Shown in pieces: positions 4,000 through 60,248 of a stretch of DNA of 64,000 nt (positions are counted from its first letter, which is position 1; every line of letters starts with the position of its first letter). A program made the translations under genes and the position numbers. The notes under the pieces were generated by a model. That model did not search any database, was not told the DNA's origin, and was given only the letters and a program-made list of their open reading frames with translations. The stretch covers positions 62,001 through 126,000 of the forward strand of contig QCCQ01000002.1 in NCBI GenBank assembly GCA_003278875.1. Direction: 5' to 3'. The stretch is from Prochlorococcus sp. AG-347-L21 (lineage in GTDB: Bacteria; Cyanobacteriota; Cyanobacteriia; PCC-6307; Cyanobiaceae).

Positions 4000-4081
4000 T
4001 GCGGTCGGGGAGACTTGAACTCCCACACCCGAAGATACGAGTACCTAAAACTCGCGCGTCTACCAATTCCGCCACGACCGC
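4000..4081 (-). tRNA. tRNA-Leu (anticodon UAG)
   Basis: Read on the minus strand, GCGGTCG (5' acceptor) pairs with CGACCGC near the 3' end, followed by discriminator A; CCA is not encoded. The D-arm contains GGAATTGGTAGAC and the T-arm GGGAGTTCAAGTCTCCC. The anticodon stem CGAGT/ACTCG encloses the loop TTTAGGT, giving anticodon TAG (UAG in RNA). The long variable arm TATCTTCGGGTG (stem-loop) is the class II signature of leucine tRNAs. Length 82 nt. Confidence 0.95.
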
Positions 4082-59125: not shown

Positions 59126-60248
59126 TTATTCAATAGATTCGTTGGAAGAAATATTCATACGTAATAATTCATGAATAAATGGTTCGAGTCCACCATTTAA
59201 AACATTATCTAACTCGTTAGTCTCCTGCATAGTCCTAAGATCTTTTACCATTTGATAGGGATGGAAAACATAATTTCTTATTTGATTGCCCCATGCAGCT
59301 TCCACAATATCACCTCTAATATCAGCTACTTCTGCAGCTCGTTGTTCTTTAGCAATCACTAATAGTTTAGACTTTAGAAGCAACATAGCTTTTTCTTTAT
59401 TTTGTAATTGAGATCTTTCTTGGGTACATCTTACTGAAATCCCTGAAGGCAAATGAACAATCCTTACCGCTGTTTCTACTTTATTAACATTTTGTCCTCC
59501 CGCTCCACCGGATCTACTAGTTGTAATTTCTAAATCTTTTTCAGGTATATCAAGTGAAATATTATCATCTAATTTTGGCATAACCTCTACCCCTGCAAAG
59601 CTGGTTTGTCTTTTGCCATTGGCATTAAAAGGAGAAATTCTTACTAATCTATGAGTTCCTTTTTCATGTTGCAGATAGCCGTATGCATATTTTCCATCAA
59701 TTTCAAACGTTACACTTTTAATACCTGCTTCTTCTCCTTGAGATAATTCATTAATGACAAGGCTCATTTGATTATTATCGGCCCATCTTGAGTACATTCT
59801 TAATAATATCTCTACCCAATCCTGCGCATCTGTTCCACCCGCACCTGCGTTAATAGAAACTACTGCACCTTCCTTATCGTATTCACCACATAACAATCTT
59901 TCAAATTCCCATTTATCTAAATTCTCTCTTAATTTCTTTAATCCCCGCTGGGATTCTAAAATCATTTCCTCTTCAGGTTCTAAAGAATAAAGCTCAAGAG
60001 AGGCATTAGCATCAGAAATAAAAGTTTTCCATTTATCTAACAATTCAAGTTGTGCTTTGACATCATCAAGGATTAACATTTGCTTTTTAGCTTCTTCTTG
60101 ATTTTCCCAAAATTCAGGCTGAGCAGAAATTTGCTCTAACTCTTTCCTTTTTGCTTTTAATCTTGGAACGTCAAAGACAATCCTGAGCATTACCCAGGCG
60201 CTCTGTTAGTTCCGAAAGATCTTTTTTGAAAAATGTTATATCTATCAA
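59126..60248 (-). CDS. prfB: Peptide chain release factor 2, made by +1 programmed frameshift
   Basis: RF2 recognises UAA and UGA. The main ORF (354 aa in the track, from 60190) has the GGQ motif [16 protein letters not shown], the domain II and III layout and a length typical of RF2. Its first residues MLRIVF are not family sequence. A zero-frame ORF starts at TTG 60248 and runs 25 codons (ending [12 protein letters not shown]) to an in-frame TGA at 60173-60171. That TGA lies in CTT-TGA-C, preceded by CAGGAT. Slipping +1 at CTT continues as [14 protein letters not shown]. This reproduces the classical RF2 autoregulatory frameshift, at codon 26 as in E. coli. Confidence 0.93.
60168..60189 (-). 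promoter_or_regulatory. RF2 +1 recoding site (CTTTGAC slippery sequence)
   Basis: On the minus strand the sequence is CTCAGGATTGTCTTTGAC: an AGGA Shine-Dalgarno-like element 4 nt before CTT, the slip codon CTT, then stop TGA followed by C. RF2 low -> slow stop decoding -> +1 slip to GAC. The element layout follows the known prfB recoding signal. Confidence 0.88.

Follow-up and report, generated by a model that had tools for sequence, protein, structure and literature searches.

The prfB locus and its product

The window analysed here, a 64,000-nucleotide stretch of a Prochlorococcus genome, carries the gene prfB on its minus strand, where the coding sequence is divided between two reading frames. 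Read along the minus strand from 60248 to 60170, the start of the locus is TTG ATA GAT ATA ACA TTT TTC AAA AAA GAT CTT TCG GAA CTA ACA GAG CGC CTG GGT AAT GCT CAG GAT TGT CTT TGA C, in which the last CTT occupies 60176-60174, the TGA 60173-60171 and the final C 60170. The features of the locus are the following.

60171 to 60248, minus strand: zero-frame leader open reading frame (ORF) with a TTG start, 25 codons and an in-frame TGA as codon 26; start and frame-0 constraint seen in relatives
60181 to 60184, minus strand: AGGA, a Shine-Dalgarno-like stimulator at -8 to -5 from the slippery CTT, containing part of a fixed CAG codon and matching the 16S anti-Shine-Dalgarno CCTCCT
60173 to 60176, minus strand: slippery sequence CTTT, on which the P-site CTT would slip +1 to TTT, assigned from sequence and conservation
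60170 to 60173, minus strand: in-frame stop TGA followed by C, a weak termination context; TGAC in 191 of 191 Cyanobacteriia loci
59126 to 60172, minus strand: main coding part of prfB in the +1 frame, from GAC (Asp) to the stop TAA at 59128-59126; release factor 2 (RF2) with SPF and GGQ motifs, matched by TIGR00020 and RF2 structures
60188 to 60190, minus strand: internal ATG taken as the start in the ORF list, unconserved in relatives and very probably not where RF2 begins

The sequence-only reading had proposed a zero-frame ORF of 25 codons from TTG 60248 ending in CTT-TGA-C, with an AGGA upstream of the slippery codon. The coordinates agree with the sequence and with the ORF list, and the AGGA lies at 60184-60181. 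The open zero frame is limited by an in-frame TAA six codons upstream of TTG 60248 and contains no other ATG, GTG or TTG codon, so that translation from a standard start places the TGA at codon 26. No Shine-Dalgarno sequence was found upstream of this TTG. CTTTGAC occurs six times on the two strands of the 64 kb and AGGA-N4-CTTTGAC only once, which argues that the arrangement at prfB is not due to chance.

Joining the 25 residues of the leader to the 348 residues of the +1 frame, which ends at 59126, gives a product of 373 amino acids. It scores 457 bits against the NCBIfam prfB model (TIGR00020, cut-off 370) and 234-237 bits against RF1 models, under their cut-offs. Comparison of the joined product with RF2 proteins had been suggested as a check, and its alignment to solved RF2 chains from E. 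coli and other bacteria starts from residue 5 or 7 and runs gapless across the junction. The SPF (RISPFNANG) and GGQ (GAGGQNVN) motifs are present, and the genome contains one RF2 gene and one RF1-like gene. These matches identify the joined protein as RF2. One Prochlorococcus genome has, beside the normal gene, a further RF2-like gene of 40% identity (G107:C47:1293-2378), possibly through contamination, listed at 3%.

Conservation of the slip site and the leader

The CTTTGAC core was present in all 191 Cyanobacteriia prfB loci examined, some species being counted twice within the 92-locus Prochlorococcus group. It is kept in 92/92 Prochlorococcus-type loci, as the proposed check on other members of the genus anticipated, and in 29/29 loci from other Cyanobiaceae and 70/70 from other Cyanobacteriia. 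At the position corresponding to 60248, all 121 Cyanobiaceae loci have a TTG or GTG. Loss of the zero-frame peptide and the TGA among relatives had been named as grounds against a frameshift; both are kept. Variation within the zero frame is biased to the third codon position (heterozygosity 0.036, 0.017 and 0.079 at positions 1, 2 and 3), and 18 of 36 variants are synonymous against 22% expected, an excess with a p value of 2e-4 when relatedness is ignored. Both prfB frames are under constraint at the protein level. The layout, the conservation of the core and the RF2 product without a gap at the junction all bear out the +1 programmed frameshift that had been proposed.

Two readings would dispense with a frameshift altogether. 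The window comes from a draft assembly (49 contigs, 84% complete), in which the two frames might be put down to a sequencing error or a pseudogene. However, 191 Cyanobacteriia loci change frame at exactly this base, and their RF2 is otherwise intact and highly conserved, which refutes this reading and leaves its probability negligible. The other would have RF2 made from the internal ATG at 60190 in the +1 frame, the zero-frame ORF being incidental. The ORF caller does report an open frame from this codon (59126 to 60190, 354 amino acids from ATG 60190-60188), and the ATG is found in 89 of the 92 close relatives. It is missing, however, from three Prochlorococcus loci, from 13 of the 29 other Cyanobiaceae (present in 16) and from 68 of the 70 other Cyanobacteriia (present in 2), all of which have CTTTGAC, and the conserved zero-frame peptide aligns with the N-terminus of known RF2. 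We therefore rejected the unconserved ATG 60190 as the RF2 start and regard initiation there as highly improbable. The ORF list had truncated RF2 through this internal ATG, as the sequence-only reading had supposed. Recognising the frameshift corrects the start-site call and adds no new mechanism.

Among genomes of the non-photosynthetic sister classes, CTTTGAC is mostly retained and accompanied by the fuller AGGAG or AGGAGG; it has been lost from a few. In three loci from a sister class of this kind (L236, L237 and L241) prfB is without CTTTGAC and reads straight through, close relatives of these loci retaining AAGGAGTGT-CTTTGAC; the frameshift was apparently lost more than once within this one family. 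Retention in a small streamlined genome is unsurprising, since the motif is also kept in the obligate intracellular Rickettsia and Wolbachia (PMC12421855).

The stimulator and the probable slipping tRNA

With E. coli prfB (AGGGGG UAU CUU UGA C) the locus shares CUU-UGA-C, the stop at codon 26, a short leader in the zero frame, RF2 encoded in the +1 frame and a Shine-Dalgarno-like element just upstream. The likeness to E. coli that had been pointed out is valid for the layout and for the codon-26 stop; it does not extend to the strength of the stimulator, as AGGA, with four pairs, is far weaker and pairs in a register one base closer. Here UGU precedes CUU, where E. coli has UAU, the start is TTG, and the slipping tRNA-Leu would have the anticodon AAG here in contrast to GAG in E. 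coli. The stimulator in E. coli and most bacteria is AGGGGG (PMC12421855); our locus has a purine-rich element, weakened to AGGA, and lacks this full consensus. The predicted duplex of AGGA with CACCUCCU amounts to about -3.8 kcal/mol over 4 bp, compared with -10.4 kcal/mol for the E. coli AGGGGG, and other prfB sites give -7.1 (Vampirovibrionia-type) and -10.0 kcal/mol (AGGAGG sites). The 16S rRNA of the genome itself ends in GGATCACCTCCTAAC, with an intact anti-Shine-Dalgarno (CCTCCT) that matches AGGA.

The same core, four-base-pair AGGA and spacing are found in other Cyanobacteriia (CAGGACTAT CTTTGAC; 69 of 70 loci). Their start codon is often ATG, placed one codon further downstream, and TAT is the usual codon ahead of CUU, in contrast to TGT in Cyanobiaceae. 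The glutamine codon that contributes to AGGA is CAG in 67/67 distinct Prochlorococcus sequences and in 70/70 from other Cyanobacteriia. Nearby glutamine codons are CAA in 199/261 and 323/454 cases, respectively, with relatedness not corrected for, and CAG makes up 18% of glutamine codons in the window. The following codon switches between Asp and Glu among relatives, with AGGA unbroken either way. CAG is thus invariant against both the local and the genomic preference for CAA, which points to selection acting on the nucleotides of AGGA and makes a function for this weak element very likely. With four pairs, the efficiency of frameshifting could be low.

Two loci deviate from this pattern. In Prochlorococcus sp. 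W8 (L093) a synonymous CAG-to-CAA change gives CAAGAC and AGGA is gone (ACAAGACTGT-CTTTGAC), which is either a natural prfB site without a Shine-Dalgarno-like element or an assembly error. Among the 70 loci from Cyanobacteriia outside Cyanobiaceae, the sole one without AGGA is L219, from a genome (G305) of family f12, which has CAGCAGTAT-CTTTGAC.

The leucine tRNAs of the genome have the anticodons TAA, CAA, TAG and AAG, with no GAG, and a complete relative (G308, 37 tRNAs) has the same four and likewise no GAG. The tRNA-Leu(AAG) gene (L172 1501-1582; G000:C4:32561-32642 on the minus strand) replaces the ancestral GAG tRNA, the anticodon loop having changed from TTGAGGG to CTAAGGA. The other leucine tRNA that reads CUN codons, tRNA-Leu(TAG), lies within the window at 4000-4081 on the minus strand. 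All 58 loci retrieved with the genome's own tRNA-Leu(AAG) as query were read for their anticodon. The anticodon is AAG in every Prochlorococcus locus and in three genera related to it, and GAG in 24 loci, comprising one member of Cyanobiaceae and all 23 loci from other Cyanobacteriia. When exact anticodon-arm patterns were sought in 200 genomes of the order, 72 had the AAG arm, 112 the GAG arm and none both; one genus (g4) is mixed, with both kinds present. As the arms are mutually exclusive and this genus is mixed, more than one switch or reversion may have taken place.

Codon and stop usage were counted in the 55 longest non-overlapping ORFs of the window, where CTC accounts for 87 of 2012 leucine codons. 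The genome encodes TadA, with HAE and PCTMC motifs, and reading of CTC by A34 alone is not expected (PMC13249217). Given that CTC is used without a GAG tRNA, the AAG anticodon is probably edited by TadA to IAG. We infer that in Prochlorococcus and some marine Synechococcus it is tRNA-Leu(AAG) that reads CUU and would slip, in place of the ancestral GAG tRNA. The presence of tRNA-Leu(AAG) in Prochlorococcus has been noted before, in a paper that does not mention frameshifting (PMC13249217), and within the limited collection of literature searched we found no paper that links this tRNA to prfB.

Co-evolution of the prfB cis site with the anticodon was also considered and was not seen, AAG and GAG genomes sharing the site. 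The same CAGGACTGT-CTTTGAC occurs in AAG genomes of genus g4 (L117, L120) and in GAG Cyanobiaceae (L119, L122, L123), and the change from TAT to TGT ahead of CUU extends to the whole of Cyanobiaceae, GAG members included. An unchanged slip site would follow if inosine at position 34 paired with U in both frames (I.U), much as G.U pairing would serve the GAG tRNA. That an IAG tRNA is compatible with prfB frameshifting is indicated by Streptococcus, a lineage with tRNA-Leu(IAG) in which the AAG anticodon arose separately. Its prfB (rio48) has a +1 frameshift alongside the IAG tRNA (PMC9426450; PMC13249217), and the frameshift has been observed with a reporter (PMC9426450). In Streptococcus the key features of the E. 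coli type are reported to be conserved, in contrast to the cyanobacterial stimulator, which is reduced to AGGA.

Probable autoregulation of RF2 and exchange of the slipping tRNA

We conclude, with a probability of about 95%, that prfB in this genome has the standard bacterial +1 programmed frameshift, of the kind known from RF2 autoregulation. The elements of the site and their conservation were observed here, as were the constraint on coding in both frames and the RF2 identity of the product. From E. coli we infer the slippage, its efficiency and the feedback by RF2. Ribosomes would initiate at TTG 60248 and arrive at CTT-TGA-C (codons 25-26), where RF2-dependent termination would compete with a +1 slip of peptidyl-tRNA-Leu. 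When RF2 is plentiful, termination at TGA would release the 25-residue peptide. When it is scarce, the ribosome would pause with tRNA-Leu on CTT, and AGGA, pairing weakly with the anti-Shine-Dalgarno of the 16S rRNA, would aid a slip of one base, from CUU to UUU, after which translation would resume at GAC to give the 373-residue RF2.

The weakness of the stimulator allows a variant in which the frameshift is obligatory and no longer regulatory. Here AGGA would give a constant, low level of slippage, tolerable with few TGA genes, and transcription would mainly set the amount of RF2. The predicted duplex (-3.8 against -10.4 kcal/mol in E. coli) fits such a variant, as does the low use of TGA, which accounts for 8 of the 55 stops counted in the window. 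A parallel exists in Flavobacterium johnsoniae, where the retained motif works at low efficiency, demand for RF2 is low and removal of the frameshift costs nothing obvious (PMC12421855; PMC8710568). However, AGGA and TGAC are kept by selection across the class, which suggests that it still matters how slip and stop are balanced, and we consider the loss of regulation unlikely. The low TGA usage also fits the published tendency of low-UGA genomes to keep the prfB motif (PMC12421855), a tendency that is disputed after phylogenetic correction (PMC13245932).

Within the standard autoregulatory frameshift a more specific model can be put forward tentatively, and we would give it somewhat less than even odds. 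In Prochlorococcus and part of marine Synechococcus, tRNA-Leu(AAG/IAG) may have replaced the GAG tRNA as the slipping tRNA, on a four-pair Shine-Dalgarno site that is common to the cyanobacteria, and frameshifting would then depend less on pairing with rRNA and more on re-pairing of the tRNA than in the E. coli model.

The prfB locus described here is essentially textbook biology, an ordinary and well-supported new instance of a known cassette. A modest added interest lies in the stimulator, which across the whole class is much weaker than the bacterial consensus, and in the natural exchange of the slipping tRNA. The change of anticodon from GAG to AAG across one family, and even within one genus, with the slip site held constant, amounts to a natural experiment. 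Together with the weak Shine-Dalgarno element, it makes the respective shares of P-site tRNA re-pairing and of mRNA-rRNA pairing in prfB frameshifting testable.
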